Source: Neolewinella aurantiaca
GTDB lineage: Bacteria > Bacteroidota > Bacteroidia > Chitinophagales > Saprospiraceae
NCBI RefSeq assembly: GCF_008014675.1
Contig: NZ_VOXD01000034.1
Coordinates: 1-64,000 of the forward strand
DNA length: 64,000 nt
Direction of reading: 5' to 3'
A program made the translations under genes and the position numbers. Positions 6,020 to 58,739 of this stretch are shown in pieces. The number at the start of each line of letters is the position of its first letter. Position 1 is the stretch's first letter. The notes beneath the pieces are model-generated. The model searched no databases and was not told where the DNA came from. It was given only the letters and a program-made list of their open reading frames with translations.

Positions 6020-6037
6020 TGCACCTGCGTCTGCGCC
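6020..6037 (+). repeat. Dispersed motif copy 1 (TGCACCTGCGTCTGCGCC)
   Basis: Exact match to the consensus TGCACCTGCGNNNGCGCC, in plus orientation, 28 bp beyond the stop codon of the minus-strand thioesterase. Confidence 0.7.
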
Positions 6038-6045
6038 CAAATTGA

Positions 6046-6059
6046 CCGAGGCAACTATA
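6046..6059 (+). repeat. CCGAGGCAACTATA, third copy of a 14-bp repeat
   Basis: Identical to the two inverted arms at 36502-36515 and 36577-36590. As there, it sits a few bases from a copy of the dispersed motif. Confidence 0.55.
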
Positions 6060-6064
6060 GAATG

Positions 6065-6496
6065 CTATCCTTCCTCAATCCGGTCGATGCCCAACAACCA
6101 TGCCTCCGGCATGGGGATTTTGTGGAGTTGCCTGAAATCGTACGGCACAATAACCTGCTTGGCGATCGCAACCAGACGATCGTGTTTTTCGGAAAAAATT
6201 CCGCACTCCATCCGGAACCGGTCCGGCTCTACCTGCAGCGTGCGGATGCCGATCGTTACGGTGTCGGGGTACGTAACGGGAAGAATATATTTGCAATCCT
6301 GCCAGGCAAGAATCGGCCCGGCATCTTGCCCGCTGAAGGAAGTATCCATGCCCATTTCAGTGAAGTAAGCAAGGCGGGCCGACTCCACCCACCGCATATA
6401 TACGCTGTTGTTTACGTGGTTGGCTGCATCCATGTCGCCCCACTGCACGGGCAGTGAGGTTTTTACTTTAAAATCGTTTAAGGTTAGTCTGCTCAT
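6065..6496 (-). CDS. Acyl-CoA thioesterase, YbgC/4-hydroxybenzoyl-CoA type
   Basis: Hot-dog-fold thioesterase of about 143 residues from the Met in AMSRLTLNDF. The signature WGDMDAANHVNNSVYMRWVESAR contains the catalytic Asp of the 4HBT family (D-x-x-x-H-V-N-N pattern), followed by the expected strands (ILAWQDCKYILPVTYPDTVTIG and the CGIFSEKHDRLVAIAKQVIVPYD segment). It hydrolyses acyl-CoA thioesters in the cytoplasm, with chain length unknown. An upstream ATG at 6550 would add 18 residues of no family character. It is divergent from the biotin carrier gene, and the 200-bp gap carries a copy of the dispersed motif. The neighbouring acyl-CoA carboxylase genes make a housekeeping CoA-recycling role plausible. 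Confidence 0.85.
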   Translation of the reverse strand: MSRLTLNDFKVKTSLPVQWGDMDAANHVNNSVYMRWVESARLAYFTEMGMDTSFSGQDAGPILAWQDCKYILPVTYPDTVTIGIRTLQVEPDRFRMECGIFSEKHDRLVAIAKQVIVPYDFRQLHKIPMPEAWLLGIDRIEEG

Positions 6497-6570
6497 GGCC
6501 GGCAATATAGGAAAGTAGTTTGGTAGTCTCGTAGTCTTTTGTTTCCGCAAAAAAACCGGAAATTCCGAAG

Positions 6571-6589
6571 GGCGCGGCCGCAGGATGCA
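6571..6589 (-). repeat. Dispersed motif copy 2, with a one-base insertion
   Basis: On the minus strand it reads TGCATCCTGCGGCCGCGCC, the consensus with one extra T. It lies between divergent genes, 75 bp upstream of the thioesterase start and in the same direction as that gene. Confidence 0.55.
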
Positions 6590-6697
6590 GGGCGGAGCTC
6601 AAAAGAGCAAGGTAAAACACCGAACCTTTCCGCTGTGATCATTACCTTGCCGCTAACCAGAAGCCCGGCCACCACCACAAGCCATCGAATAAAGATT

Positions 6698-7177
6698 ATG
6701 CCCAAATACCAAGTAACCATAAACGGCCAGGAATATCCGGTAAAGGCCGATGACCTAGCAAACCTGGATGTTCTCTCCCCTGCCCCGGGGAAATACCATC
6801 TGATCCGCGATGGTAAATCTTACCACATCGAAGTTCTCGCCCTCAACATGGCTTCCAAAATGGTCACCCTGACCGTCAACGGCCGTCAGCAGAGCATGAA
6901 AATTGCCGACGAAACCGATCAGCTGGTGAAAGAACTCGGCTTCGCTGCTGTCGCCACCACAAAGTCTAAAAATATTATCGCTCCGATGCCCGGTCTGGTG
7001 CTTGACGTAATGGTCAAACCCGGTGATCAGATCACCGAAGGCACTCCCCTGCTCATTCTCGAAGCGATGAAAATGGAAAACGTCCTCAAGGCCGAAGGTG
7101 ACGGCGAAGTGAAAACCATCTCCGTTGAGAAAGGCCAGGCCGTAGAGAAGAAACAACTCCTCATCGAAATCGAATAA
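6698..7177 (+). CDS. Biotin carboxyl carrier protein of an acyl-CoA carboxylase
   Basis: A 159-residue carrier subunit. The C-terminal 75 residues form a biotinyl domain, with IIAPMPGLVLDVMVKPGDQITEGTPLLILEAMKMEN: the Lys in EAMKME is the biotin attachment site. The first 80 residues are a small beta domain seen in propionyl/oxaloacetate-type carriers. The start at 6698 (MPKYQVTING) is chosen because the longer frame upstream encodes basic low-quality sequence overlapping the motif copy at 6571. It shuttles carboxybiotin between the biotin carboxylase at 8199 and, most likely, the carboxyltransferase at 17919. The interposed mutase genes point to propionyl-CoA as substrate. Confidence 0.9.
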   Translation: MPKYQVTINGQEYPVKADDLANLDVLSPAPGKYHLIRDGKSYHIEVLALNMASKMVTLTVNGRQQSMKIADETDQLVKELGFAAVATTKSKNIIAPMPGLVLDVMVKPGDQITEGTPLLILEAMKMENVLKAEGDGEVKTISVEKGQAVEKKQLLIEIE

Positions 7178-7297
7178 ACCGGCCAACGCAGCCTCAGGCT
7201 GCGGGCGGTCTAACGGGCTCTACGAGCGTGAGCTTACTAATGTTCGCGCCCGGAGGGCACTCCAACTGTTCGCTGCCTGAGGCTGCGTCGACCGGCC
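7178..7297. repeat. Inverted repeat interval between the biotin carrier and mutA
   Basis: CGCAGCCTCAGGC at 7187-7199 is exactly complementary to GCCTGAGGCTGCG at 7275-7287, with the palindrome CCGGCC just outside both arms (7179-7184 and 7292-7297). The left arm is also part of the palindrome GCAGCCTCAGGCTGC. The spacer holds no gene. It could be a small mobile relic or an RNA structure that uncouples the flanking genes. Confidence 0.5.
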
Positions 7298-7312
7298 AAA
7301 AGTGCGCAAATC

Positions 7313-8173
7313 ATGCAAACAAATTTTCCAGAAGTATCCAAGGCGGAGTGGCTCGCTAAGGTCGAAAAAGACCTGAAGGGCAAATCTTTGGACAGCCTCG
7401 ATTTTGAGGTGAGTGGAGAGACGTTTTCGCCGGTGCATCACCGGGATGACCTCGCTACCCTGCCCCGCCCCGTCAGAACAACCTCCGGTTGTCGGCTCGG
7501 GGTCTTCATCGAAGTACAAGACGCCGTTTCTGCCAACAAACTTGCCTTGGAAGCCTTGAACGGCGGAGCTGATTACCTTTATTTGTACGATCCGCTATAC
7601 ACCACGGGCAAAGAGGGGTATCAGGAAAAGCTATACGCTGGTATACTGACCGATATCGTTGAGGTAGTTTGGCATAACCACCCCACTTCAATTGTCATTT
7701 CAGGCATAGATACCATTGCTCAGGAACTATACAACTTCTCCGGCTCTCGGGGCGAATCCACACTTTGGTTGTCTCCCGGGACTGAATACCTTACGAATAT
7801 TGCGTTCTTCCGGGCAACGCGGCTTTGTGCCAGCCTCATTATGGAACACAGTTCGGAAATTACGGGGTTCAGAACGGGAGTTGTTGTCGAGGGCGACGAA
7901 AAAGACCCGAATACCGCTAAAATTCGCACAACAGCCCAAGCGATGGCCGCAATAAACGGCGGTGCGGACATTCTGATGATAAAACCGAGTGACGGCAAAG
8001 GGGACACTGCTTTTGAGCGCAGAATAGCCCGCAATGTTCATCATCTCCTTACTGAAGAATCGCACCTCACCCGGGTTGCCGATCCCGCTACCGGCAGCTA
8101 TTATATTGAATCCCTGACCGATCACCTCGCCCGGAAAATATGGGCGAAATTCCAACTCGCCTTTTCAGCGTAA
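7313..8173 (+). CDS. mutA: Methylmalonyl-CoA mutase small-subunit-like protein, unusually short
   Basis: The 286-residue protein has the beginning (FPEVSKAEWLAKVEKDLKGKSLDSLDF) and the end of the mutase barrel domain (RVADPATGSYYIESLTDHLARKIWAKFQ), plus the FFRATRL segment, which align with the noncatalytic small subunit. Typical small subunits are roughly 450-650 residues, so a large middle portion and the whole B12-like C-terminal domain are absent. No frameshift is visible: the frame is clean and retains conserved blocks, so it is a compact subunit or a degenerating one. It would pair with the catalytic subunit at 9804. It lies 25 bp before the biotin carboxylase gene, forming an operon-like run of same-strand genes. 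Confidence 0.75.
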   Translation: MQTNFPEVSKAEWLAKVEKDLKGKSLDSLDFEVSGETFSPVHHRDDLATLPRPVRTTSGCRLGVFIEVQDAVSANKLALEALNGGADYLYLYDPLYTTGKEGYQEKLYAGILTDIVEVVWHNHPTSIVISGIDTIAQELYNFSGSRGESTLWLSPGTEYLTNIAFFRATRLCASLIMEHSSEITGFRTGVVVEGDEKDPNTAKIRTTAQAMAAINGGADILMIKPSDGKGDTAFERRIARNVHHLLTEESHLTRVADPATGSYYIESLTDHLARKIWAKFQLAFSA

Positions 8174-8198
8174 ATGCTGAAGAACAATATCGAACCAA

Positions 8199-9734
8199 AT
8201 GAAAAAATTACTAATTGCCAACCGGGGAGAAATCGCCCTTCGCGTAATGCGGACCGCCAAGCGCATGGGCATCGCCACCGTCGCTATCTACTCCGAAGCA
8301 GACCGTAACGCGCCCCACGTCCGCTTTGCAGACGAAGCAGTGCTCCTGGGCCCCGCCCCTTCCAACCAGTCTTACCTGGTGATGGACAAAGTCATCGCTG
8401 CGGCAAAGCAGACCGGCGCCGACGCCATCCATCCCGGCTACGGTTTCCTGAGTGAGAACGCCGAATTCGCCCGTAAGGTAGAAGCCGCAGATATCATTTT
8501 CGTAGGCCCAAAGCCCCACGCTATCGAAGTAATGGGCAACAAACTAGCTGCCAAAGAAGCCGTTGCGGACTATGACATCCCCATGGTTCCCGGTATCGAA
8601 GAAGCAATCACCGACGTGGAACTGGCAAAGAAGATTGGGGACGAAGTCGGCTACCCCATCCTCATCAAAGCCGCCGCCGGAGGCGGCGGTAAGGGCATGC
8701 GCGTCGTCGAAAACCGCGAGGAACTCCAGGAACAGATGGAGCGGGCCATCTCTGAGGCAACCTCCGCCTTTGGCGACGGGTCGGTCTTCATCGAGAAGTA
8801 CGTCACTTCTCCCCGCCACATTGAGATACAGGTATTGGCCGATAGCCACGGCAACGTGGTTCACCTCTTCGAACGTGAATGTTCCGTTCAGCGGAGACAC
8901 CAGAAGGTCGTCGAAGAGGCGCCGTCTGTGCCCCTGTCCGATGACATTAAAACTTGCTCTGAACCTGCGGCCGCGCCAGAAAAAGAAGCGGAAGAAGAAG
9001 AAAATCGCCCGTTTTCCCTCAAGCCCAATGGCCCCAAAAGCCTGCGTGATCGTATGGGCGAAGCTGCCGTTAAGTGTGCTAAAGCCTGTGATTATCTGGG
9101 CGCAGGAACTGTAGAGTTCCTGCTCGACGGTGAGGGTAATTTCTACTTCCTGGAAATGAATACCCGCCTTCAGGTAGAGCATCCGGTCACCGAACTCATT
9201 ACCGGCGTGGATCTGGTAGAGCAGCAAATCCTGATCGCACGCGGAGAGAAGCTGGACTTTGAGCAAAAAGATCTCAAAATACGTGGCCACGCCATCGAAC
9301 TGCGCGTCTACGCCGAAGACCCGATGAACAATTTCCTGCCCAGCATCGGAACCCTCGATGTCTACCGCCCACCCTCCGGTTACGGTATCCGTGTCGACGA
9401 TGGCTTCGAAGAAGGAATGGAAGTGCCGATTTATTACGACCCGATGATCGCCAAACTCATCACGTTCGGATCATCCCGCGAAGAGGCTTTAGCTAAAATG
9501 CGCGAAGCGATCGACAATTACCACATCAGAGGAATTGAGACGACGCTTCCTTTCGGTCGCTTTGTGGTCGGTCACGAAGCCTTCGTTTGTGGCGATTTCG
9601 ACACCAATTTCGTGAAAAAGCACTACTCCCCCGAGGCCATCCTCGCAGAGCGCGAAGAAGAACAGAAAATTGGAGCCCTGGCGGGCGCATTGGTATTCGA
9701 GGAAGTTCTATCGCAATTGACTGTCCCCGAATAA
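8199..9734 (+). CDS. accC: Biotin carboxylase subunit of acyl-CoA (propionyl-CoA) carboxylase
   Basis: The 511-residue ATP-grasp enzyme carboxylates biotin on the carrier protein using ATP and bicarbonate. It begins MKKLLIANRGEIALRVMRTA and shows the HPGYGFLSENAEFA segment, the glycine-rich ATP loop KAAAGGGGKGMRVV, the HIEIQVLADSHGNVVHLFERECSVQRRHQK block and EMNTRLQVEHPVTE with catalytic residues. Between PLSDD (ending at residue 249) and RDRMGEAAVK (from 283) there is an extra Ala/Pro/Glu-rich stretch of about 33 residues not expected in the family (normal spacing runs EEAPS, a few residues, LR.RMGEAAVK). That insertion carries a 17/18 copy of the dispersed motif. The enzyme is otherwise full length; there is no fused biotin domain, consistent with the separate carrier. 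Confidence 0.92.
   Translation: MKKLLIANRGEIALRVMRTAKRMGIATVAIYSEADRNAPHVRFADEAVLLGPAPSNQSYLVMDKVIAAAKQTGADAIHPGYGFLSENAEFARKVEAADIIFVGPKPHAIEVMGNKLAAKEAVADYDIPMVPGIEEAITDVELAKKIGDEVGYPILIKAAAGGGGKGMRVVENREELQEQMERAISEATSAFGDGSVFIEKYVTSPRHIEIQVLADSHGNVVHLFERECSVQRRHQKVVEEAPSVPLSDDIKTCSEPAAAPEKEAEEEENRPFSLKPNGPKSLRDRMGEAAVKCAKACDYLGAGTVEFLLDGEGNFYFLEMNTRLQVEHPVTELITGVDLVEQQILIARGEKLDFEQKDLKIRGHAIELRVYAEDPMNNFLPSIGTLDVYRPPSGYGIRVDDGFEEGMEVPIYYDPMIAKLITFGSSREEALAKMREAIDNYHIRGIETTLPFGRFVVGHEAFVCGDFDTNFVKKHYSPEAILAEREEEQKIGALAGALVFEEVLSQLTVPE
8946..9044 (+). other. In-frame insertion of about 33 codons containing dispersed motif copy 3
   Basis: Codons 250-282 of the biotin carboxylase. The bases 8960-8977 read TGAACCTGCGGCCGCGCC, one mismatch from the consensus. 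The encoded residues include SEPAAAPEKEAEEEENRPF, acidic and low in complexity, as expected for a surface loop. The boundaries are estimated from family spacing. Confidence 0.6.
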
Positions 9735-9803
9735 GCAGGCCCGGCGGAAGCCGGAGCATTAATTGAACAAGCCAGCGGCACAAGCCGCCCCTACCGAAAA
9801 AGC

Positions 9804-11927
9804 ATGGAACCAACAGACTTCACCAAGATCCCCTTCCGACGGATTTCTGCCAATGGCAGTAAATCGCACGAGCCTCATCAGACTCCTGAGGGAATTCCCG
9901 TAAAAAAAGTCTACACTCCCGAAGATCTGGAGGGGCTGTCCCATCTCGGGTACGTTGCCGGTCTTCCCCCCTACCTGCGCGGGCCTTACTCGAGCATGTA
10001 CGCCGTCCGCCCGTGGACGATCCGGCAGTACGCAGGGTTCAGTACAGCCGAGGAATCGAACGCCTTTTACCGCAGAAATCTGGCGCAGGGACAGAAAGGC
10101 CTCTCCGTCGCCTTTGACCTGGCCACCCACCGGGGCTACGACTCCGACCACCCGCGGGTAACCGGTGACGTAGGTATGGCGGGCGTTGCGATCGACACGG
10201 TTGAAGATATGAAGGTGCTCTTCGATCAGATTCCACTCGATAAGATGTCGGTGTCCATGACCATGAACGGTGCCGTGCTGCCCATCATGGCGTTCTTCAT
10301 CGTTGCGGCCGAAGAGCAGGGCGTTGAGCAAAAGCTGCTCTCAGGAACGATCCAGAACGACATTCTGAAGGAGTTCATGGTTCGGAATACTTACATCTAC
10401 CCTCCGGCGGAGTCGATGCGGATTGTGGGCGACATTTTTGCTTACACCGCCGAGCATATGCCCAAGTTCAACAGCATCAGCATCAGCGGCTACCACATGC
10501 ACGAAGCCGGAGCTTCCGCTGACATCGAGCTGGCGTACACCCTTGCCGACGGGCTGGAATACATCCGCACCGGAATGGCTGCCGGGCTGAAGATCGATGA
10601 TTTTGCGCCCCGCCTGAGCTTCTTCTGGGGCATCGGGATGAACTACTTCATGGAGATTGCCAAACTGCGGGCCGGCCGGCTCTTATGGGCGGAGCTCGTG
10701 AAGGAATTCGACCCGCAAAACCCCAAGTCGATGGCGCTGCGTACGCACTGCCAGACCTCCGGCTGGAGCCTTACGGCTCAGGACCCTTTCAACAACATCG
10801 CCCGCACAACCATTGAGGCAATGGCTGCGGCTTTTGGGGGTACCCAGAGTCTTCACACCAACTCGCTCGACGAAGCTATCGCGCTGCCTACAGATTTCTC
10901 CGCGAAAATTGCCCGTGACACCCAGAAGTATCTCCAGCAGGAAACCGGCATCACGAACGTTGTCGACCCCTGGGGCGGCAGCTACTACGTAGAAAAGCTT
11001 ACGGCGGATCTCGCCGATCGGGCGCGGGAGCTGATGAAGGAAGTCGAAGACCTCGGCGGTATGGCCAAAGCTATTGAAAAGGGTGTCCCGAAGCTCCGCA
11101 TCGAGGAGGCCGCGGCCCGCAAACAGGCCCGTATCGACGGAGGCACAGACAAGATAATCGGCGTTAACCTCTTCCCCAACCTCGACGAAGAAGAGCAAAT
11201 CGATGTTCTTGAAGTAGATAATAAAGCAGTCCGTGAAGCACAGATTGCGAAGTTGAAAAAAGTAAAAAGCGAGAGAGATGAGGGCGAGGTCGCAGGTGCA
11301 CTAGACGCTTTGAGGCAGTGCGCATCCTCCGGCGAAGGTAACCTTCTCCAAAAAGCGGTCTTTGCAGCCCGCGTGCGCGCCACACTGGGCGAAATCTCCG
11401 ACGCGCTTGAATCCTCCTTCGGGCGTTACCGCGCCACCAACCGCATCATATCAGGTGCTTACGCCAACGAAATGAAGCAAAACGACGACTTTCATACCGC
11501 ACGGGAACTCACCCGCAAATTTGCCGAAGTTTACGGCCGTCAGCCCCGCATCATGGTCGCTAAACTCGGCCAGGACGGTCACGACCGCGGAGCGAAGGTC
11601 ATCGCTTCCAGTTTTGCTGACATAGGCTTCGACGTAGACGTAGGTCCCCTCTTCCAAACACCGGAAGAAGCCGCCCGCTCCGCGGTCGAGAACGATGTAC
11701 ACATCCTCGGAATCTCCTCTCTCGCCGCCGGACACAAAACGCTCGTGCCTCAGGCCATTGCAGCCCTTAAAGCGGAAGGCGCAGAGGACATCATGGTCGT
11801 TACCGGCGGTGTAATCCCCGAGCAAGACTACCAGTTTTTGTACGATCACGGCGTGGCGGCAATCTTTGGCCCCGGTACTGTCATTGCCAAGGCGGCCGCA
11901 GCAATCCTCAGGATTATGCTGCCTTAG
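9804..11927 (+). CDS. mutB: Methylmalonyl-CoA mutase, catalytic B12-binding subunit
   Basis: The 707-residue enzyme interconverts (R)-methylmalonyl-CoA and succinyl-CoA. It has the full barrel ([52 protein letters not shown]) and a C-terminal cobalamin domain from about 570 with the DGHDRG motif, whose His593 is the lower cobalt ligand, then [11 protein letters not shown] and [11 protein letters not shown]. All hallmarks of the active subunit are present. It follows the biotin carboxylase after 69 bp. With the carboxylase subunits it forms the propionyl-CoA assimilation route into the TCA cycle. No MeaB chaperone or methylmalonyl-CoA epimerase gene is in the window. Confidence 0.96.
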
Positions 11928-11950
11928 TCTTTCCCGTGGTTACCTGAACA

Positions 11951-11987: not shown

Positions 11988-12013
11988 GGTATAAAACTGT
12001 GTATGCTGGGAGG

Positions 12014-12896: not shown

Positions 12897-12920
12897 GGAA
12901 AAACTCCAATTAAATACCGA

Positions 12921-17722: not shown

Positions 17723-17857
17723 GGCGGGGCCGCAGGTGCCACGCACGTTGAACGGCAGCGGACGAGCCCTGAAGAACCGGTACCCAGGCTCGGGTGGTGT
17801 TCTGCTCCGCCATGGTTCCAACCGCGCTCTACCTCACCCTGCACCCGCGTCAGCGCC
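17723..17857. repeat. Inverted pair of dispersed motif copies 4 and 5
   Basis: The left copy (17723-17740, minus) reads GGCACCTGCGGCCCCGCC and the right copy (17840-17857, plus) reads TGCACCCGCGTCAGCGCC. They point outward from a 99-bp GC-rich centre with no credible gene, giving a miniature-element-like shape. The unit lies between the divergent amylase and carboxyltransferase genes, so each copy faces the nearest start codon. Confidence 0.55.
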
Positions 17858-24422: not shown

Positions 24423-24440
24423 TGCACCTGCGTGCGCGCC
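24423..24440 (+). repeat. Dispersed motif copy 6 (TGCACCTGCGTGCGCGCC)
   Basis: Exact match to the consensus, in the short gap between the convergent rlmF and marC-like genes and 12 bp from the latter's end. Confidence 0.65.
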
Positions 24441-26403: not shown

Positions 26404-28206
26404 CTACTGTAGCGTTACTTCTTTGATCCAAAGCCCCGTTTCGGTATCATTATCGTAGCCTCCGAAAATGTGCAATTCGCTTGCGCCCGCCCGCACGGTA
26501 AAATCTTCGACGATTGCCGTTGCCCACTGTCGGGGATAGACCTCTTTGCGTTTTACCCGGTCAGCAACCGAGAGTTGCGGAGTGATAGCTTTGGGTAATT
26601 CTATAAATTTCAGGTCTTGCTGCAGGCTGTCCATCTGAATACCGAGCCGTATATTTTTTTCGGCGTGGTAGTGAATGGTTACGCGGTATGTCCGGTCTTG
26701 GGTAATTTCAACAGGCCAATAAGCGCCGTTCCAGTCTAAATCCACGAAGAAATCATTAGACCAGCCGTATTCGTCCATAAAGTGCGTTTCTCCCAGTGGT
26801 TCTCCCTCGTGCGCCTGTAGGTGCACCGGACGAAACTGAGCGGCGTCGAGATTGATCGGAGGAGCAATCAAATCCGGCCGGGCGATCGTGGCGGCAAACC
26901 GGTTGTATTCGGCGGCCATCTCCCGGGCGTGGCCCTGAACGCCCTTCAGGAAGTCTGCGTCAGACGCCATGATATTGGTGCGCTGCCCCTCGTCTTTATG
27001 AATTTCGTAGGCTTCAAAATCATCAGGACTGTTCATCACCACCAAGCGGTGGCTGTTTCTGACGCTTCCCGGATAGCCGGTAAAATCGTAGCCCTGCTTG
27101 AATGCATAAATCGGGCGATTCTGGTCAAACACCCGCGAAGAATCAGGTTCGAGCAGGGGCATCAGGCTCTTTCCGTCTAATCCTCCGGGCGGTTGGGGTA
27201 AACCGACAATATCCAGTAAGGTCGGCACCAGGTCGATATGAGCTGCCGGTGTGTGAAACTGCCGGCCGTTGGCAGGATGGCCGTTAGGGAAACGGATACC
27301 GAAAGGCACCCGTACCCCGCCTTCGTTGACCGAGCCTTTTGTTCCTTTTAGTCCCATACGGTACCGGTCACCGTTGGGTCCGTTGTCGGTGCTGAAAATT
27401 ACGATGGTATTGTCGAGTTTTCCGGCTGCTTCAAGCTGATCGAGTAGCTTTCCGATGTGGTCGTCGACGGATTCGATCATAGCGTAGACACCAGTATTGT
27501 AGTCGGTCAGGCCGCGGCTTTTTACCGGGTTCCAGTACTTGTCGGCTACCTGCACTGGCGTATGCGGAGCCTGGTAAGTAAGCATACAAAAGAAAGGCTG
27601 ATCCTGGTCTGCCAGCATGAAGTGAGCGGCGGTATCGGTGAGGATTGTTGTCAGGTCTCCATTAAAGGGAACTACTTCATTGTCTTCGTTTTCCAGCTCG
27701 CCATTAAAGTAATCATTGAAGTGACCGAGGGTAAAGCCAAGAAACTGATCAAAGCCCTGCCCGTTGGGGTCGTAGGGCTTCGTGCTTCCATTATGCCACT
27801 TCCCGAACAGGCCGGTTCTGTAGCCTGCATGCTTCAGGTATTCAGGGATCGTCATGATGCCATCGTCCATGGTTTCGCGCCGACGGGTTACGAAGACAGC
27901 GCCCGTGCGGGGCGAATACAAGCCGCTCAGGAAACTGGCGCGCGTTGGCGCACAGACCGGGCTGACATAAAAACGGCTGAACTGAGCACCAGAAGTCAGC
28001 AGTGCATCCATATTCGGCGTCCGGATAGAGTCGTTGCCGTGCAGGGAGAGATCCCCAACCCCCTGATCGTCGGTTAGGATGAAGAGGATATTCGGGGGCA
28101 CGTCCTGTTTTCCGACCTCAACACCTCTGTTTTCGGAGGGCGACGGCGCGCAGGTGCAAACAAAAAGACCAAGGAGCAAGGCGGGGAAAACACATCGGTA
28201 CGTCAT
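26404..28206 (-). CDS. Type I sulfatase, exported lipoprotein
   Basis: The 600-residue protein belongs to the alkaline-phosphatase superfamily. The metal site starts at PNILFILTDDQGVGDLSLHG, and VCAPTRASFLSG gives the C-x-P-x-R sulfatase motif in which Cys85 would be converted to formylglycine. GKWHNG and IFSTDNGPNG are further sulfatase blocks. Residues about 470-600 form an extra all-beta tail (VEITQDRTYRVTIHYHAEKNIRL). It is exported by a lipoprotein-like signal, with candidate anchor cysteines at 17 and 19. It probably removes sulfate esters from marine polysaccharides, with linkage unknown. The codons for C17-T18-C19-A20-P21 are a copy of the dispersed motif. Confidence 0.92.
   Translation of the reverse strand: MTYRCVFPALLLGLFVCTCAPSPSENRGVEVGKQDVPPNILFILTDDQGVGDLSLHGNDSIRTPNMDALLTSGAQFSRFYVSPVCAPTRASFLSGLYSPRTGAVFVTRRRETMDDGIMTIPEYLKHAGYRTGLFGKWHNGSTKPYDPNGQGFDQFLGFTLGHFNDYFNGELENEDNEVVPFNGDLTTILTDTAAHFMLADQDQPFFCMLTYQAPHTPVQVADKYWNPVKSRGLTDYNTGVYAMIESVDDHIGKLLDQLEAAGKLDNTIVIFSTDNGPNGDRYRMGLKGTKGSVNEGGVRVPFGIRFPNGHPANGRQFHTPAAHIDLVPTLLDIVGLPQPPGGLDGKSLMPLLEPDSSRVFDQNRPIYAFKQGYDFTGYPGSVRNSHRLVVMNSPDDFEAYEIHKDEGQRTNIMASDADFLKGVQGHAREMAAEYNRFAATIARPDLIAPPINLDAAQFRPVHLQAHEGEPLGETHFMDEYGWSNDFFVDLDWNGAYWPVEITQDRTYRVTIHYHAEKNIRLGIQMDSLQQDLKFIELPKAITPQLSVADRVKRKEVYPRQWATAIVEDFTVRAGASELHIFGGYDNDTETGLWIKEVTLQ
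28145..28158 (-). repeat. Dispersed motif copy 7 inside the sulfatase signal peptide
   Basis: On the minus strand it reads TGCACCTGCGCGCC: the ten-base core is exact and the tail is shortened. It encodes the lipobox cysteine region of the sulfatase. Confidence 0.45.
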
Positions 28207-33378: not shown

Positions 33379-33414
33379 GGCGCGGCCGCAGGTGCAATGG
33401 GAGGTTTTGTGGAG
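33379..33414 (-). repeat. Dispersed motif copy 8 with 18-bp extension shared with 36.5 kb
   Basis: The core at 33379-33396 reads TGCACCTGCGGCCGCGCC on the minus strand. The adjoining 18 bp (33397-33414, ATGGGAGGTTTTGTGGAG on plus) recur exactly at 36472-36489 beside another core, so 35 of 36 bp match. Confidence 0.7.
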
Positions 33415-33968
33415 ACACGGTTTCCCCGCTAAGACTTTACAATTTTGCGTAAAGAAGATTTACCCCCCTTGCATCCCAGCAGATTTAACGCCATTCACCG
33501 CTTGCTCAGCAAGCGGTTGGGGAAGGAGCAAAGGGAACTGAAACAGCCTAAATGTTACGTGATTATACGGCTTCAGCTCAGTAGTCCCCCTTATTGTCAC
33601 CCCTTGTATACACAAATCTTACTGGTGTACCCCTTATTGTCCCCCGTAGTAGATATACATCTGACTGCTGGTCCGCACATCTTTGCAACCTGACATACAA
33701 ACACCTGCACGTTGATGACCTGACTGGAACAATCAACAACATAAATGCTGAATTGAGAGCTTGTTCGGGTTTTGCCTTCTGGCTGATTGCTGACAAATTT
33801 GATGTAAAACGATGAGCGAGAAACTTGCATAGCCATAGCTATGGAAGTTTTGAGCGAAGAAGTGCAGCATCAAATTTAGCGCAAGCAAGCCGAAGTGTTA
33901 AACCCGAACAAGCTTTAAGATCAGTATCGCTCAACGCAGGTAATTAACTCCCCATTAAATTCTGATTC
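33415..33968. other. Long gap without a convincing gene
   Basis: Several short frames of 60-80 codons overlap here on both strands, none with family character or good starts. The main structure is the long hairpin at 33758-33914. An AT-rich stretch follows before the C11 protease gene. No tRNA or recognisable RNA gene was seen. Confidence 0.5.
33758..33914. repeat. 157-bp imperfect hairpin element (MITE-like)
   Basis: The outer arms AGCTTGTTCGGGTTT (33758-33772) and AAACCCGAACAAGCT (33900-33914) are exactly complementary. Inner arms AAATTTGATG/CATCAAATTT and AACTTGCATAGC/GCTATGGAAGTT follow in nested order, and the centre contains the palindrome CCATAGCTATGG. The whole interval therefore folds on itself. 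It encodes no protein, and looks like a non-autonomous mobile relic. Confidence 0.65.
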
Positions 33969-36410: not shown

Positions 36411-36590
36411 TGCACCTGCGACCGCGCCCGTATAAATCAGATAGTCCTCACAAGGCGCGGCCACAGGTGCAATGGGAGGTTTTGTGGAGCTCCACTGCAC
36501 CTATAGTTGCCTCGGTCATCAAAGGTGAAATTTTGGCCAGATGATGAAAGCGGCCGCTAAAGATCACCCGGGGCGGCCGAGGCAACTATA
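36411..36590. repeat. Nest of inverted repeats with dispersed motif copies 9 and 10
   Basis: Reading left to right: core TGCACCTGCGACCGCGCC (36411-36428, plus); a facing core at 36454-36471 (minus, TGCACCTGTGGCCGCGCC); the shared 18-bp extension (36472-36489); palindrome GTGGAGCTCCAC (36484-36495); a half core TGCACCT (36496-36502); and a pair of exact 14-bp arms TATAGTTGCCTCGG/CCGAGGCAACTATA (36502-36515 and 36577-36590). No gene fits. The nest fills the gap between two convergent genes. Confidence 0.65.
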
Positions 36591-38734: not shown

Positions 38735-38752
38735 GGCGCGGCCGCAGGTGCA
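38735..38752 (-). repeat. Dispersed motif copy 11 (TGCACCTGCGGCCGCGCC)
   Basis: Exact consensus, 50 bp upstream of the glycosidase start and in the same direction as that gene. Confidence 0.7.
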
Positions 38753-45426: not shown

Positions 45427-45474
45427 TGGGTGAAGGTAAAAAATAGTGCTCAAACCACAAGTCTCTTTCCTCTT

Positions 45475-46225
45475 CCCCTTCCAGGCCCGGAGGGCCGGCT
45501 CCCGTAACGAGGGGTGAAGAGCAGACCGCAGGTCAACCCGCAGCCCCTCGGACACTGCCGTCCGGTGCCAATTCATGCGCCGCCGCAGGTGCCGAGATGG
45601 TTAACGCTCCCCTTCCAGGCCCGGAGGGCCGGCTCCCGTAACGAGGGGTAAGGAGCAGACCGCAGGTCAACCCGCAGCCCCTCGGACACTGCCGTCCGGT
45701 GCCAATTCATGCGCCGCCGCAGGTGCCAAAATAGTTAACGCTCCCCTTCCAGGCCCGGAGGGCCGGCTCCCGTAACGAGGGGTAAGGAGCAGACCGCAGG
45801 TCAATCCGCAACCCCTCGGATACTGCCGTCCGGTGCCAATTCATGCGCGGCCGCAGGTGCCAAGATGGTTAACGCTCCCCTTCCAGGCCCGGAGGGCCGG
45901 CTCCCGTAACGAGGGGTAAGGAGCAGACCGCAGGTCAACCCGCAGCCCCTCGGATACTGCCGTCCGGTGCCACTGCATGAGCCGACGCAAGTGCCGAGAT
46001 GATTAACGCTCCCCCTTCCAGGCCCGGAGGGCCGGCTCCCGTAACGAGGGGTAAGGAGCAGACCGCAGGTCAATCCGCAGCCCCTCGAACACTGCCGTCC
46101 GGTGCCACTGCATGCGCCGCCGCGGGGGCCAAGATGGTTAAGGCTCCCCCCTTCCAGGCCCGGAGGGCCGTCTCCCGTAACGAGGGGTAAGGAGCAGACC
46201 GCAGGTCAACCCGCAGCCCTTCGCG
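45475..46225. repeat. Tandem array: 134-bp unit, five copies plus half
   Basis: The anchor CCAGGCCCGGAGGG recurs at 45481, 45615, 45749, 45883, 46018 and 46154, giving periods of 134, 134, 134, 135 and 136 bp. The last copy is cut off after about 70 bp. Each unit has a GC hairpin (GGCCCGGAGGGCC), CTCCCGTAACGAGGGGT, GACCGCAGGTC, and a copy of the dispersed motif on the minus strand (45576-45593, 45710-45727, 45844-45861, 45978-45995, 46113-46130; for the first, GGCACCTGCGGCGGCGCA). The period is not a multiple of three and no consistent frame exists, so it is non-coding. It fills the gap between divergent genes. Confidence 0.85.
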
Positions 46226-46402: not shown

Positions 46403-48847
46403 ATGCACCTGCGCCCGCGCCTGCTCTTTCTTCTATTACTGTTATTTCCCCTTTTTGCATACGCTCAGCAAAATCAATCCAGCGACACCAATGGTAAAGT
46501 TGGAGGGACACTGATCGATGCAGAAACCGAAGAGCCCATCGGCTTTGCCAATGTGATCATATATACTGTTTCTGATAGTATGATTACGGGTACCACCACT
46601 GATATAGACGGTAAGTTCCTCTTTGAGAATATCGCTCCTGGTGATTACCGTGTCGAGATGAGCTTCATTGGATACGATACCGAGAACCGGGAAGTTGAGA
46701 TCAGCGAAATTGAACGCGTATTTTCCATCGGAGACGTCTCACTCGGCACCGCCGGGCAGGACCTCGACGAAGTAGTCGTTACCGCACAACGCGCCGTTAT
46801 GGAGCTGGGGCTTGACCGCAAAGTTTTCAACGTCGAAAAATCAGTGGCCGCGGCCGGTGGTTCTGCGGAAGATCTGCTACGTCAGTTACCCAGTATCAGC
46901 GTCGATCTCGAAGGCAACGTATCCTTACGTGGCTCGGGTAACGTGCGCTTTCTCATCAACGGCCGCCCCTCCGGCCTTGTCGGTTCCGACCCTGCAACTT
47001 ACCTCAAGTCCCTCTCTTCCACCAACATTGAACGCATCGAAGTGATTACCAACCCCGGCGCCGCTTACGACCCCGACGGAACGGCAGGACTCATCAACAT
47101 CGTCCTGAAAAACAAGCGCGAAGACGGCTTTAATGCCTCGATCAACCTCAACGCAGGTACTGGTAATAAATTCGACGGCAGCCTGGACATGAACTGGAGA
47201 AAGGGAAAATTCAACACCTTTGCCGGAGTAAGTGGCCGGTCAGACGAACGCTTCTTTCGCGGTTTCCGCGACCAGAGTGGCATCATCGAAGACAGCACCT
47301 TCAGCCGCCGCTTTACTTTCGATGGCGATCGTATCCGCAAATCGACCACCTTCAAACTTGGTACGGAGTACAACCTCGGTAAGCGGGCAACGCTCGGGTT
47401 GCAGGGCAATTACCAACTTGAGGACGGCGAAAGCAGCAACGACAGGGTGACCAATTTCTTCAACAGCTCCGGAGAACTCGACCGGGTGAGTACCAGGCTG
47501 GAAACGGAACCATCCGACGAAACCGATTACGAGATAAGTGCCGACTATACCACAACCTTCAAAAAGGAAGGTCGCAAATTATCCGTTAACGTCCGCTACT
47601 CCGAAAATGATGAATTTGAACAGGAGAACTACGACGAAACCATCGTCGATGGCAACGGCAACCTCTTAGAAACGCTGCTCCAGCAAAGCCCTTCCCTCGA
47701 GGACCGTACACAGGTCGTTGGGCAACTCGATTACGAACAGCAAATGGGAGATTTCAAATTTTCCGCTGGCTGGCGCTCTACCTTGCAGGAACTCACCACC
47801 GATTCAGAATTTGCCACCTTCGACGGAAATGAGTTCATCGTAAGTGAAGAACAAAGCAACCTATTCACCTACGAGGAGGACATTCACGCCGTTTATGCCT
47901 CATTTGGCGGCCAGATAGACGCGATCACTTTCAGCACCGGCCTGCGGGTAGAACAGGCATACACCACCAGCCTGCTGCGTGAACCCGACGTCGAGACCTT
48001 CGAAAACGATTACTTTAAAATCTACCCCAGTATTTTTGCCGGCTATGCCTTCGACGAAAACACGACGCTGCAGGCAAGCTACAGTCGCAGAATCAACCGC
48101 GCCCGGTCGGGAGCCCTCAACCCGTTTGTAGACAGAGGAGACCCCTTCAACCTGCGCAGTGGCAACCCGTTTCTGTTGCCAGAACTGATCAACAGTTTCG
48201 AGCTCAACGTACAGCAACGCCATGGTCTAGGCACCCTTACCGCCGGGGTTTACTTCCGCCAGCTCAACGATATCATCAGCCGCATCAGCATCTCCCAACC
48301 GGGAGGCGTAACGCTCAGTACCCGTGGTAATCTCGACCAGGGTCGCAACTACGGCATCGAGGTGATCAACACCCTGCGCATCGGTCAGAAGCTTGAGTTC
48401 ACCGCCAGCGCCAACGGATACAAATCGGAAATTATTGGCCGGGCGGACGATGAGACCGTCGACGCCAACGGCTACCTTTTCAGTGGCCGCCTGCAGGGAG
48501 GCTACCAGCTGCCTGGAGATATCCAGGCGCAGTTCACCTACTTCTACCGCAGCCCCGGCGTACGCCCCCAGGGACAAATTAAGACCATCCAAAGTTTCGA
48601 TCTCGGTTTCCGGAAAGAGATTCTCGACAAAAAAGGAGCCATCACCCTTAGGGTAACGGACCTCTTCAATACCCGGAAGTATCGCTTCGACACCGAGCTG
48701 GCCAGCCTGACGACAAGCAGCGAATTTCAACGCGAGAGCCGTATCGTTTACGTCGGTTTCCAGTACAGTCTGCAGCAACTTACTCCGGAGCGTAACCGCA
48801 ACGCGAACCGTAACGGTGGTGGCGGAGATGATGGCGGAGACTTTTAA
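46403..48847 (+). CDS. TonB-dependent outer-membrane receptor with carboxypeptidase-like N-domain
   Basis: About 814 residues. Signal peptide from MHLRPRLLFLL to FAYAQ; then a carboxypeptidase-regulatory-like beta domain (VGGTLIDAETEEPIGFANVIIYT ... FLFENIAPGDYRVEMSFIGYDT), a plug (LDEVVVTAQRAVMELGLDRKVFNVEK, DLLRQLPSISVDLEGNVSLRGSGNVRFLINGRPS, IERIEVITNPGAAYDPDGTAGLINIVLK) and an outer-membrane beta barrel, with an Asn/Gly-rich tail (NRNANRNGGGGDDGGD). Plug wording fits the outer-membrane beta-barrel family often linked to carbohydrate or metal import. There is no SusD partner. The first codons (ATG CAC CTG CGC CCG CGC) overlap a dispersed-motif copy; an ATG at 46379 is the alternative start. 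Confidence 0.9.
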   Translation: MHLRPRLLFLLLLLFPLFAYAQQNQSSDTNGKVGGTLIDAETEEPIGFANVIIYTVSDSMITGTTTDIDGKFLFENIAPGDYRVEMSFIGYDTENREVEISEIERVFSIGDVSLGTAGQDLDEVVVTAQRAVMELGLDRKVFNVEKSVAAAGGSAEDLLRQLPSISVDLEGNVSLRGSGNVRFLINGRPSGLVGSDPATYLKSLSSTNIERIEVITNPGAAYDPDGTAGLINIVLKNKREDGFNASINLNAGTGNKFDGSLDMNWRKGKFNTFAGVSGRSDERFFRGFRDQSGIIEDSTFSRRFTFDGDRIRKSTTFKLGTEYNLGKRATLGLQGNYQLEDGESSNDRVTNFFNSSGELDRVSTRLETEPSDETDYEISADYTTTFKKEGRKLSVNVRYSENDEFEQENYDETIVDGNGNLLETLLQQSPSLEDRTQVVGQLDYEQQMGDFKFSAGWRSTLQELTTDSEFATFDGNEFIVSEEQSNLFTYEEDIHAVYASFGGQIDAITFSTGLRVEQAYTTSLLREPDVETFENDYFKIYPSIFAGYAFDENTTLQASYSRRINRARSGALNPFVDRGDPFNLRSGNPFLLPELINSFELNVQQRHGLGTLTAGVYFRQLNDIISRISISQPGGVTLSTRGNLDQGRNYGIEVINTLRIGQKLEFTASANGYKSEIIGRADDETVDANGYLFSGRLQGGYQLPGDIQAQFTYFYRSPGVRPQGQIKTIQSFDLGFRKEILDKKGAITLRVTDLFNTRKYRFDTELASLTTSSEFQRESRIVYVGFQYSLQQLTPERNRNANRNGGGGDDGGDF
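46404..46421 (+). repeat. Dispersed motif copy 12, overlapping the TonB receptor start codon
   Basis: TGCACCTGCGCCCGCGCC, exact consensus; with the preceding A it supplies the ATG and the positively charged start of the signal peptide. Confidence 0.6.
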
Positions 48848-50556: not shown

Positions 50557-50567
50557 AGAACACAGAT

Positions 50568-51630: not shown

Positions 51631-51648
51631 GGCGCGAACGCAGGTGCA
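51631..51648 (-). repeat. Dispersed motif copy 13 (TGCACCTGCGTTCGCGCC)
   Basis: Exact consensus on the minus strand, 71 bp upstream of mltG but pointing away from it, unlike most intergenic copies. Confidence 0.65.
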
Positions 51649-52759: not shown

Positions 52760-52821
52760 TGTCTTGTCAAGTAGACTACGCAGCAGACGGTGCGACAACA
52801 ACTGCCTGACGGGCCACCAGG

Positions 52822-53292: not shown

Positions 53293-53567
53293 TGTATTGA
53301 TTGTAGTGCGCAAGTTAGGAAGGGTTTGCGGCTTCCCGGCTTGGTTTCGGCAACAAGTGAGTACCACAATGCTGATAACGCACAAGGGCTGCTTCCGAAA
53401 GAAAAAACACGGTCGCTCCGTAAGGCATGACCAGGATACGTGCTTACGGGCAGATTGAGGTTGAAGTCCCGAAATTCACGGCCTGACTGAACTAAAGCCT
53501 GCTCTAAATAGTATTCCGTGCTGTATCTTTAGTTTAACGAAGCATTTATCATCCGCCTACACCGCTT

Positions 53568-54044: not shown

Positions 54045-54078
54045 CGCTCCGCTCCCCTGCTTTTTCCAACCTTTTCAT

Positions 54079-54096
54079 TGCACCTGCGACCGCGCC
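54079..54096 (+). repeat. Dispersed motif copy 14 (TGCACCTGCGACCGCGCC)
   Basis: Exact consensus, 35 bp after the unknown helical gene and 20 bp before the -33 element of the pepT promoter. Confidence 0.7.
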
Positions 54097-54115
54097 CACA
54101 TATTACGGGGATGAG

Positions 54116-54145
54116 TTGAATAGCTCTGCTGCCGTAGTATCTTTG
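54116..54145 (+). promoter_or_regulatory. Bacteroidota-type promoter of pepT
   Basis: TTG at 54116-54118 and TATCTTTG at 54138-54145 are separated by 19 bp, matching the -33/-7 arrangement of Bacteroidota sigma-ABfr promoters. The ATG of pepT is 22 bp downstream, leaving a short leader. Confidence 0.7.
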
Positions 54146-54167
54146 GCGGAACAAAACTTCCGTAAAG

Positions 54168-55409: not shown

Positions 55410-55572
55410 TTTTTAGGTCAGACCAGTTTCTGTTTTTACCTTACGGCGGCTATACCGGAAACGAAGTGATTCGGTTCCGGTATAACCTGCGGTGGGTGAT
55501 TCCCCTGCTCTCAACAGTCTTTCATTGCCTGCCCGAAGGGCAGATATTTCACCATTACTTCGTTACATCACT

Positions 55573-57612
55573 ATGCAGAATCCGGTTATCCTTCGCGACA
55601 TAAGCTGGCTATCATTTAATCACCGGGTTCTTCAGGAGGCAAACGATCCATCGTTGCCGCTCTTCGAGCGAATCAAGTTTCTTGCGATTTACAGCTCTAA
55701 CCTTGATGAGTTCTTTCGGGTCCGGATGGCAAACCACCGCAATCTGTTGCGGGTCGGTAAGAAAACCAAGAAGGAACTCGACATTACTCCCAAGCAAACG
55801 GTCCGCTCTATTCAACGAATCGTAAACCGGCAGCAGGAAGAGTTCAGTCGTATTTTCGAGAAGAAAATAACGCCGGAATTAACCCGGCACGGCATAGTCC
55901 TTAAGCGACGACTGGACCTCTCCACCGTAGAGAAAGAGTGGGTTGAGAATTATTTCCACGATAAGATGCTGCCCTTCGTGCAGCCGGTGCTACTCGTGAA
56001 GGACATGGTTCGTCCCTTCCTGAACAATGCACAGCTCTACCTTACTATCCTGATGAAGGAAAAGGAAAGCCGGAAGACGGCCTATGCGGTAGTGAAGATA
56101 CCCAGCGATCATCTGCCCCGATTCATTGAGTTACCCAAGACGGACCTGAACCATAACGTGATCATGCTGGACGACATCGTTCGGCATTCGATTTCGTGGA
56201 TGTTCCCGGGGTATGAGATCGAGGATACGTATTCGGTAAAGCTCACGCGTGACGCAGAGCTCTACATCGATGACGAATTTAGTGGAGATTTGCTGGACAA
56301 GATCAAGACCAGTCTTCAGCGGCGGCACGTTGGCCCAGCCAGTCGTTTCGTTTACGACAGAACGATGTCGAAAGACCTGCTGGATTACCTCAAAGATACC
56401 TTTGAGCTGGAAAGCCTGGATATACTTGCCGAAGGTCGTTACCACAACAACTCTGAGTTTTTCGGCTTTCCTGATTTTGGGATGAATCACCTCAAGAATC
56501 CGCCCCAACCACCGCTACCGTACAAACCACTAGAAGAAGCAGAAGATTTCTGGGCTGCTATCCGGGAGCGCGACCATCTGCTGCACGTTCCTTACCAGAG
56601 TTACGAATCTGTCGTCCGTTTCTTTGAAATAGCAGCCGAAGATCCTCAGGTGACCCACATCAAGATCGTTCAGTACCGGGTTGCCCGTAAGAGTCGTATA
56701 ATGAAAGCCCTCATGGCGGCCGTCAAGGCGGGTAAGAAAGTTCATGTATTCATCGAGGTGAAGGCACGCTTCGACGAAGAGGCCAACCTCAAGTGGGGTG
56801 AAAGGCTGGAAAAAGCCGGCGTTCACGTCAACTACAGTTTTCCCGGAGTGAAGGTGCACAGTAAACTTGCAACCGTCCGCAGGTTGGAAGATGGAGAGCC
56901 CAAGTTGTACAACTATATGGCAACCGGAAACTTCCACGAGGACACCGCTAAAATCTACTCAGATTTCGGGCTGTTCACCGCCGACGAAAGACTAACCGCA
57001 GAGGTTGCCCGCGTATTCAAATTCCTCGAACACGTAGAGCACCCCGGGCGTGATTTTGAACACCTGATGGTTGGTCAATTCAACCTCCTGGACGGATTGG
57101 AAAGTCTGATCGAGAAAGAAATTGAGGAGGCAAAGGCTGGTCGGAAGGCATCGATGACCCTGAAGATGAACAGTCTTCAGGACCCGGAGATGATAGAACT
57201 ACTGTATAAAGCTTCGCAGGCAGGCGTAAAGATCAACCTGATCATTCGCGGAATTTGCTGCCTCGTTCCGGGCCGGGAGGGAGTTAGCGAAAACATCCAC
57301 GGCATCAGCATCGTGGATCGCTATCTTGAACACGCACGGGTATTCCACTTTCACCACGCCGGCGAAGAAAAGCTATACCTCAGTTCTGCAGACTTTATGA
57401 CCCGAAATCTTCACCATCGGATAGAAACCACGTTCCCCGTCTACGATGAGGACCTGAAGGCGGAAATTATCCATTTCATGGAAATCCAGCTAGCGGACAA
57501 TACCAAGGCGCGGCTGTTATCTGATCAGCAGAGTAATTCGTACTACACCAAAGGACGTAAAAAAGTGCGCAGCCAGGAAGCGACTTACAACTACTTCCGG
57601 GACAGACTTTAA
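55573..57612 (+). CDS. ppk1: Polyphosphate kinase 1
   Basis: The 679-residue enzyme reversibly makes polyphosphate from ATP. The N domain has ISWLSFNHRVLQEA and LAIYSSNLDEFFRVRMA; the phospholipase-D-like core has DHLLHVPYQSYESVVRFFEIAAEDPQVTHIKIVQYRVA, VEVKARFDEEANLKWGERLEKAGVHVNYSFPGVKVHSKLATV (His in VHSK), ATGNFHEDTAKIYSDFGLFTA and LYLSSADFMTRNLHHRIE. The start at 55573 fits the family, whose proteins open with a short lead to DISWLSFN. A CYTH-domain phosphatase is nearby. Confidence 0.95.
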   Translation: MQNPVILRDISWLSFNHRVLQEANDPSLPLFERIKFLAIYSSNLDEFFRVRMANHRNLLRVGKKTKKELDITPKQTVRSIQRIVNRQQEEFSRIFEKKITPELTRHGIVLKRRLDLSTVEKEWVENYFHDKMLPFVQPVLLVKDMVRPFLNNAQLYLTILMKEKESRKTAYAVVKIPSDHLPRFIELPKTDLNHNVIMLDDIVRHSISWMFPGYEIEDTYSVKLTRDAELYIDDEFSGDLLDKIKTSLQRRHVGPASRFVYDRTMSKDLLDYLKDTFELESLDILAEGRYHNNSEFFGFPDFGMNHLKNPPQPPLPYKPLEEAEDFWAAIRERDHLLHVPYQSYESVVRFFEIAAEDPQVTHIKIVQYRVARKSRIMKALMAAVKAGKKVHVFIEVKARFDEEANLKWGERLEKAGVHVNYSFPGVKVHSKLATVRRLEDGEPKLYNYMATGNFHEDTAKIYSDFGLFTADERLTAEVARVFKFLEHVEHPGRDFEHLMVGQFNLLDGLESLIEKEIEEAKAGRKASMTLKMNSLQDPEMIELLYKASQAGVKINLIIRGICCLVPGREGVSENIHGISIVDRYLEHARVFHFHHAGEEKLYLSSADFMTRNLHHRIETTFPVYDEDLKAEIIHFMEIQLADNTKARLLSDQQSNSYYTKGRKKVRSQEATYNYFRDRL

Positions 57613-57674
57613 GCAGATCCGTTTCCCGGAATGACAGGACACGACCGGCAGGCAGGCAACGATCGTTATTTAAC

Positions 57675-58109
57675 TCATGACAAAGCCTTGGGCCTGGACG
57701 GTGATATACGCTCAGCGATTTTGAAACCCAGCCAGGCCATGGGGAAGTAAGCGACAACCAGATCCACGACCGCAAACCACAGTGGACCGGGCAGGATAAA
57801 GTTTACCGCAATACCACCAATAAAGAAGATTACTCCGACGACCAACGCAACGCGCAGTTTACCTGTGCTCACAATGGATGCTGCGATTGCCGCACCGACC
57901 AGCGTCCCCAGTGCATGGGCGAGAAACGGAAACACGAAATAACCAGGACTCAGGGTCGGCATGATTTCAGCGAGGGCCTCCATATCGTTAGGATCCACGC
58001 CGGAAATTGGATGCAGGCGATGCCCCAATTGAATAAGGCCCATATTGACGGCGCTTCCTCCGATCCAACCAGCAAGGACAGCGAGGGTTTTGCGTAATAA
58101 CGGATGCAT
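57675..58109 (-). CDS. Four-helix inner-membrane protein of unknown function
   Basis: The 144-residue protein has four hydrophobic segments: TLAVLAGWIGGSAVNMGLIQLG, GYFVFPFLAHALGTLVGAAIAASIV, VALVVGVIFFIGGIAVNFILPG and WFAVVDLVVAYFPMAWLGF. Loops are short and polar. The layout is like small DUF-type membrane proteins conserved in Bacteroidota. No motif points to a function. Confidence 0.65.
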   Translation of the reverse strand: MHPLLRKTLAVLAGWIGGSAVNMGLIQLGHRLHPISGVDPNDMEALAEIMPTLSPGYFVFPFLAHALGTLVGAAIAASIVSTGKLRVALVVGVIFFIGGIAVNFILPGPLWFAVVDLVVAYFPMAWLGFKIAERISPSRPKALS

Positions 58110-58197
58110 TATCTGTGATTTTTAATTTATCGTTACCTGAGTTACCCGTGCTTCCAGATCACCGGCGCAGAGAGGCGATTGAAGGTCTGCCCCTGCC

Positions 58198-58419
58198 CTA
58201 CTCCGCGATTTCGTAATCGATGCCAGCCTTACGCAGTGCGCGGTATGCGGAAGACTCGTTGAAAGATACTTCAATTTCGACGGAGGATCCTTCGAGGAGG
58301 ATATCGGTAAGTTCGTTGGCAAGATTATGGTCTACTCCATCGGCGATATCGCCAATCATGCGGGCAATGGCTCTGCGGTCGGGGCGGTCCTGATCGCAGG
58401 ACAAAAGATTGATTGTCAT
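58198..58419 (-). CDS. Small unknown protein, 73 residues
   Basis: An acidic cytoplasmic protein: DRPDRRAIARMIGDIADGVDHNLANELTDILLEG then SSVEIEVSFNESSAYRALRKAGIDYEI. The helix-rich first half and beta-alpha second half give it protein-like composition, unlike shadow frames, and it has a clean ATG. It lies 88 bp upstream of the membrane protein gene on the same strand. No family recognised. Confidence 0.55.
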   Translation of the reverse strand: MTINLLSCDQDRPDRRAIARMIGDIADGVDHNLANELTDILLEGSSVEIEVSFNESSAYRALRKAGIDYEIAE

Positions 58420-58721
58420 TTTATTGCTGTTTTGTTTGCAAATGTATGTAAAAATAACATTTTAAACAAATCAATTGTACTACTGGACATTCTTGATTTT
58501 CCACCTCACCCTCCGCCCTCTCCGGCAAGGTTTGCTTCGCAGTGCCTCCTCTAATCACCACGCTAGCTTAACTTTGGCGCATTGTAATGATACAAGTATT
58601 TCGTGCTCGCCTAAGGCTCAGCGGAGAGGGAACCAAACCTCGAAGAAGCCACGAAGCGAAATCTCCAGTAGTAGGCAAATCAATTATAATTCAACCCCTT
58701 TGCTCCTTAAAAGGGAGCCCT

Positions 58722-58739
58722 GCACCTGCGTCAGCGCCC
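58722..58739 (+). repeat. Dispersed motif copy 15 (TGCACCTGCGTCAGCGCC)
   Basis: Exact consensus, about 215 bp upstream of trxB and in the same direction. Confidence 0.7.

Follow-up and report, generated by a model that had tools for sequence, protein, structure and literature searches.

An 18-bp word dispersed through the genome of Neolewinella aurantiaca forms dialects among related species and may work like a DNA-uptake signal

The genome of Neolewinella aurantiaca (G000; 5,995,659 bases in 104 contigs) carries an 18-bp word in hundreds of copies, and within the genus the word exists in species dialects, two relatives having hundreds of copies of a word of their own instead. The word was noticed in a stretch of 64,000 nucleotides (positions 1 to 64,000 of contig NZ_VOXD01000034.1; hereafter the window). 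That observation was real and understated: over the whole genome the exact pattern occurred 760 times, far above the level set by composition, whereas the reversed pattern, used as a control, had 0 matches. With 381 forward and 379 reverse copies, the balanced orientation claimed in the preliminary description extends to the entire genome. Among the candidates offered there, a DNA-uptake-type sequence gives the best fit to copy number, use of both strands, excess between genes, tolerance within genes, even spacing and dialects. We see about an even chance that the word is an uptake-signal-like self tag, which would work like, rather than be, the uptake words of Neisseriaceae (DUS) and Pasteurellaceae (USS).

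In the window, TGCACCTGCGNNNGCGCC with up to three mismatches gave 20 matches, compared to 2.23 expected (100 dinucleotide shuffles, largest 7); 9 were exact and 13 had no more than one mismatch. The 10-mer described as exact in ten copies was found 11 times, ten of these at copies already listed, against 0.127 expected. The original list of about 15 copies was largely correct but incomplete. Matches with at most two mismatches were present at 13 of its 15 positions, while those given as 6571 (-) and 28145 (-) have four; the copy assigned to 58722 is present on the plus strand but begins at 58721; and the list omitted one copy with one mismatch, at 11283 (-), and three with two mismatches each, at 45576, 45710 and 45844.

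Exact copies lie between genes at 6020..6037 (+), 33379..33396 (-), 38735..38752 (-), 51631..51648 (-), 54079..54096 (+) and 58721..58738 (+), and another, at 24423..24440 (+), lies near a MarC-type gene, at 11 bp from its stop codon. The exact copy at 36411..36428 (+) forms a head-to-head inverted pair with a 1-mismatch copy at 36454..36471 (-), 43 bp apart, and a tail-to-tail pair, 117 bp apart, consists of a 2-mismatch copy at 17723..17740 (-) and a 1-mismatch copy at 17840..17857 (+). The last exact copy, at 46404..46421 (+), overlaps the N-terminal signal-peptide-like region of a gene for a TonB-receptor-like outer-membrane protein. Copies with one mismatch are located inside a biotin-carboxylase-type gene (8960..8977, +), in a segment missing from the related genomes G014 and G019, and inside a methylmalonyl-CoA mutase gene (11283..11300, -); at the latter place the motif has 1 mismatch in G003 and G014 and 3 in G019. 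At 28141..28158 (-), where a sulfatase gene encodes a signal-peptide-like N-terminal region, an exact 10-mer stands with an altered right half (4 mismatches in total). At the corresponding place G002, G005 and G010 have the full motif and G008 shares the altered form, whereas the motif is not present in G014. The copy at 6571..6588 (-) is degenerate, with 4 mismatches and the left half shifted by one base. Minus-strand copies with two mismatches at 45576..45593, 45710..45727 and 45844..45861 belong to three units of a 134-bp tandem repeat (45474-46223, 5.6 copies). Gene context was taken from a codon-statistics gene caller, which misses some signal-peptide starts. By this caller, 12 of the 15 listed copies are intergenic, in agreement with the statement that most are; the exceptions are 8960, 28141 and 46404, the latter two counting as genic after two gene starts were corrected to include signal peptides.

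Two further dispersed repeats were noted in the window, one of about 160 bp (33756-33920) and one of about 88 bp (36502-36590); different contigs of G000 hold copies that match them at about 90-96% identity. A 16-base word, GACCGAGGCAACTATA, is common to 6044-6059 (+) and 36502-36517 (-), each time beside a motif copy; at 36502-36517 (-) it lies at the edge of the 88-bp repeat.

Employing 101 sites with at most one mismatch, from the window and contig C1 of the same genome (314,765 bases), we derived a profile of the element. It is long and non-palindromic, with the core TGCACCTGCGkCCGCGCC and a weakly conserved upstream part, aaCC...cyt, in which A is conserved at -10 and -9, C at -7 and C/T at -3. 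A pyrimidine-rich stretch reaches upstream to about -20, and downstream the conservation fades shortly past position 17. The center, previously described as a varying NNN, is truly free only at its first base; the second is C in 72% and the third in 79% of the sites. In C1, where there is about one core (≤1 mismatch) per 3.6 kb, 31 of the 43 mismatches in single-mismatch copies fall at positions 6 and 13. The word was unreported in the literature on uptake words or repeats in Bacteroidetes/Bacteroidota or Lewinella that our search covered, many subscription journals and preprints being outside its scope. A text search with the exact letters gave, among the matches listed, unrelated titles, and uptake sequences were not mentioned in the passages of PMC8383284 that a search brought up.

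Of the 21 genomes of the genus, two of them 55% and 88% complete, all but one contained the exact pattern; the reversed control matched twice over the whole set. Copy numbers per genome were 760, 689, 666, 517, 506, 418, 408, 377, 196, 104, 76, 65, 63, 44, 34, 21, 15, 13, 5, 2 and 0. A 20-kb locus of Lewinella sp. IMCC34183 also bears the motif. Outside the genus, 1 of 39 genomes from other genera of the family or order had a match, a single one; the word is nearly confined to this genus. As to a phage origin, which we rejected, at least 120 stretches in viral contigs matched, and 75 of the 80 among the matches listed carry a single match; we take these as chance in 2.9 million contigs.

We searched for local words de novo in G000 and seven relatives (G001, G004, G007, G009, G011, G016 and G019). 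G001, with 0 copies of the 18-mer, proved to have its own word among its over-represented k-mers, ACCTGCGCTCCGCCGC, which stands behind a T-rich stretch and occurs in 287 copies there versus 0 to 26 in each of the other 20 genomes. G011, with 2 copies of the 18-mer, has the over-represented word TTGCTACTTTGNTAGC, in 191 copies versus 0 in the other 20 genomes. The letters of the G011 word agree with the G000 core at 6 of 10 places only; judged by its position and behavior, it would be descended from the same element. G019 and G009 showed GCACCYGCG variants, and the local words of G004, G007 and G016 were weak and uncertain. The output of intergenic k-mer discovery was dominated by tandem repeats. 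G004 (L091-L097) has intergenic repeats of the CCGTCCAACGGT type and the AATTTAAAATT type, and G007 (L098-L104) has a palindrome, CCCGATAGCTATCGGG, with 20 PWM hits in 140 kb. In a one-gene tree, in which several other nodes were poorly supported, the eight dense genomes together with G014 and G019 formed one clade, and G011 was its sister.

The word is concentrated between genes. In C1, of which 85% of the bases are coding, 54 of the 88 copies (≤1 mismatch) are intergenic and 34 genic (24 antisense, 10 sense), that is, 1.14 versus 0.127 copies per kb, a nine-fold difference. The respective densities of the local word were 0.58 and 0.077 in G001, 0.94 and 0.107 in G011, 0.98 and 0.078 in G009, 1.09 and 0.113 in G019, 0.23 and 0.079 in G016 and 0.13 and 0.008 in G004; it was denser between genes than within them in all seven genomes measured, the values for G016 and G004 resting on 13 and 3 hits. 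Neutral or mutational over-representation, produced by composition, codon usage or a common protein motif, is already contradicted by this nine-fold excess, by the reversed control (0 vs 760) and by the use of both strands and three frames. In favor of the neutral reading, which we consider extremely improbable, a recurring signal-peptide-like end, C-T-C-x-x-A, is encoded at 5 of the 101 sites. Inspected by eye, the frame TGC-ACC-TGC is part of a long open frame with an ATG close by at 6 sites, 5 of them signal-peptide-like, and the other two frames add 5 more of the 101 sites that are signal-peptide-like or nearly so. An origin from signal peptides was rejected; with 101 sites read in three frames, 11 open frames are too few for the set.

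Copies are not indifferent to the genes beside them. Of 63 intergenic copies, 45 (71%) have a gene closer to their downstream end than to their upstream end, the median distance being 129 bp upstream and 65 bp downstream; the nearest gene end is never closer than 26 bp on the upstream side, and on the downstream side the distance goes down to 0. Where the downstream end faces a stop codon, 10 of 22 intergenic copies lie within 11 bp of it. These distances, and the several copies in signal-peptide-like regions, would suit a regulatory DNA or RNA element near genes, such as part of a promoter, a terminator or an operator. Against this, the number of copies in each intergenic class (37 codirectional, 29 divergent, 10 convergent) roughly follows the length of that class, and the codirectional copies showed no significant orientation, 21 pointing with and 16 against the genes (21 versus 13 in a second count). 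Moreover, copies are found deep inside genes on either strand, and an Rfam search with the element gave no match. A regulatory element is improbable.

Close copies are always inverted: all 10 pairs within 130 bp are so arranged, 8 tail-to-tail at 83-117 bp and 2 head-to-head at 43 and 52 bp. The three tandem-array copies were excluded from this count but included in that of intergenic classes and orientation. Over longer distances, spacing was more even than in random placement matched for the genic and intergenic shares in all four genomes tested; the observed and expected coefficients of variation were 0.77 and 1.04 in G000 (p 0.0013), 0.83 and 1.02 in G001 (p 0.049), 0.75 and 1.03 in G011 (p 0.033), and 0.57 and 1.02 in G019 (p 0.0003).

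Even spacing, balanced strands, conservation at orthologous places and a long non-palindromic element would also fit a site for a chromosome-organizing or nucleoid protein, a cytoplasmic protein that binds at hundreds of regular places and shapes or segregates the chromosome. The word of G011 is absent from the other 20 genomes, which is unexpected for the site of a core chromosomal protein. We regard such a site as possible but rather doubtful; it is the main rival of the uptake reading, ahead of the mobile, regulatory and neutral ones.

We compared orthologous places in regions alignable at 67-84% identity. Starting from copies of G000, 13 of 21 comparisons had the copy kept (≤1 mismatch), 5 had two or three mismatches and 3 were gapped; starting from copies of the relatives, 13 of 21 had it kept, 1 had two or three mismatches, 5 were gapped and 2 differed by at least four substitutions without a gap. 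The two directions share pairs. Of the two outcomes that the preliminary description named as refuting, neither was seen: the frequency is far above composition, and placement is not identical in all relatives. In gapless pairs (20 pairs at 10 sites, 9 genic and one intergenic, L039:6613), identity was 0.92 in the core, 0.71 in the flanks and 0.77 in GC-rich control 18-mers, and in 0 of 20,000 resamplings was the site mean reached. Because the core is more conserved than flanks and controls at orthologous places, the copies are maintained, and some, as far as alignments tell, differ by substitution alone. As to an origin by point mutation or by insertion, the alignments are mostly gapless, apart from the gapped 3 of 21 and 5 of 21; relatives only 67-84% identical are too distant for a clean empty-site test. 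A counter-example is the copy at 8960, whose segment G014 and G019 lack.

These alignments bear on the proposal that the word is a small mobile element, for instance the remnant of a REP- or MITE-like family in which only one end is conserved and which a Y1 (RAYT) transposase, or a different one, had spread. REP/BIME repeats with RAYT are dispersed, mostly intergenic and often in inverted pairs, as is the word here. The inversion of all 10 close pairs, the length variation at the 8960 copy, the alignment gaps (3 of 21 and 5 of 21) and four Y1_Tnp matches in G000 point in this direction. Most alignments, on the other hand, are gapless and conserved, 2 of 21 differing by at least four substitutions with no gap, and copies are conserved inside genes. 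No copy-wide hairpin was found in 8 folded copies (z -1.69 to 1.77), five of which had a 3-bp stem. No association with Y1 transposases was detected either: a copy (≤1 mismatch) lies within about 1.5 kb of 2 of the 4 Y1 loci in G000 (one ending at a contig end), approximately the background density, and G001 has four Y1 matches yet no 18-mer. The mobile-element candidate is mostly contradicted by these results, and we consider it quite unlikely.

Abundance on both strands, intergenic excess with tolerance in genes, even spacing, maintenance and dialects match the uptake words, and a mechanism of the following kind may be proposed. A surface DNA receptor would prefer DNA carrying the local dialect; recombination of the preferentially imported DNA would keep copies intact and would also fix new copies arisen by point mutation; and when the specificity of the receptor shifted, the word set of the genome would follow, giving rise to dialects. 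As for the machinery, the suggested search for competence genes gave ComEC in all 21 genomes of the genus; ComEC is widespread, being present also in 10 of 14 control genomes. The matches to PF00437, the family that comprises the ATPases of pili and of type II secretion, were short throughout the 21 genomes (at most 84 of 370 positions, at most 25.5 bits). Its cut-off of 24.9 was marginally reached by 11 of 21 genomes, in long ORFs that we take for other P-loop proteins. Since the pilus ATPase is a defining feature and no convincing one was found, we do not file the word as DUS but say only that it may work like one. The receptor would then need to act without a pilus, which is what the Riemerella genes in the accessible text of PMC8459023 suggest for that genus.

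According to that text, transformation of Riemerella anatipestifer needs ComEC, DprA, ComF and RecA, together with four further proteins that show no homology to known machinery; the four include a DUF5689 protein and, next to it, an outer-membrane protein with a carboxypeptidase regulatory domain (PMC8459023). In the genus studied here, DUF5689 was found in 1 of 21 genomes, G011, where a three-domain, lipoprotein-like DUF5689 protein (G011:C115, L258/L261) directly follows a barrel-type protein whose CarboxypepD_reg and Plug matches are below the Pfam cut-offs. The Riemerella-type pair was not found in the other 20 genomes, G000 included, the barrel being searched by its C-terminal 427 aa only. 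DUF5689 is no specific mark, because matches occur also in Bacillus subtilis. G011 is both the genome with the most deviant word and the one with the DUF5689/barrel pair; this is one coincidence, a single case and not a test. We suggest, tentatively, that the words might be a code in dialects by which Lewinella species recognize their own DNA for uptake, that surface receptors independent of pili might read it, and that in G011 the receptor (DUF5689/barrel) and the word might have been replaced together; we would sooner doubt than assert it.

Several results run against the uptake reading: no convincing pilus ATPase was found and the Riemerella-type pair only in G011; copies are not neutral to genes, the downstream end being nearer in 71%; close pairs are all inverted and mostly tail-to-tail; and the 8960 segment is missing from two relatives and some alignments have gaps. 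If the uptake reading is true, a dialect-forming word exists in a further phylum without convincing pilus ATPases, which would suggest that self-recognition in gene exchange arose independently; a preference for own DNA such as R. columbina is reported to show would have a basis, and the receptor could be found by its co-variation with the dialects.

Other genomic words were compared with this one. HIP1 of cyanobacteria is a short palindrome, common inside genes, whereas the element here is long and non-palindromic with a nine-fold intergenic excess. Chi and KOPS show a strand bias along the replichore, and the preliminary description argued against a KOPS-like polarity; here the strands are balanced overall, as counted over a draft of 104 contigs rather than along replichores. 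In REP/BIME repeats with RAYT, the differences are those given above, namely no copy-wide hairpin and no RAYT association here, with copies conserved inside genes.

The only families in which uptake words are established, to our knowledge, are Neisseriaceae and Pasteurellaceae, and both possess type IV pili. DUS of Neisseriaceae are 10-12 bp long, compared to the 18-bp core and upstream part here, and their density is higher. Close pairs in Neisseria are terminator-like; here they are mostly tail-to-tail. USS consist of a core and weaker flanking positions, as does the element here, and even spacing is a feature of USS. According to the accessible text on Pasteurellaceae, USS dialects diverge among members of the family, a likeness to the words described here; the receptor was long elusive, and its candidate is a type IV minor pilin, whereas no convincing pilus ATPase was found here (PMC12616744). 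Neisseriaceae belong to another phylum and differ in the same respect. The accessible text on their DUS describes very many copies, intergenic plus tolerated intragenic, and dialects that differ between species, agree with the phylogeny and share a short core, all of which resemble the present case (PMC3630211). In Riemerella, no uptake word is established in the accessible reports, the authors listing A-rich k-mers as putative words (PMC7965970), and the pair published there was not found in 20 of the 21 genomes searched here. Riemerella is nevertheless close in other ways: it is a naturally transformable member of the Bacteroidota, its essential genes as given in the accessible text include no pilus gene (PMC8459023), R. 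columbina favors its own DNA (PMC7965970), and G011 has a DUF5689 protein next to a barrel, an arrangement also described for Riemerella.
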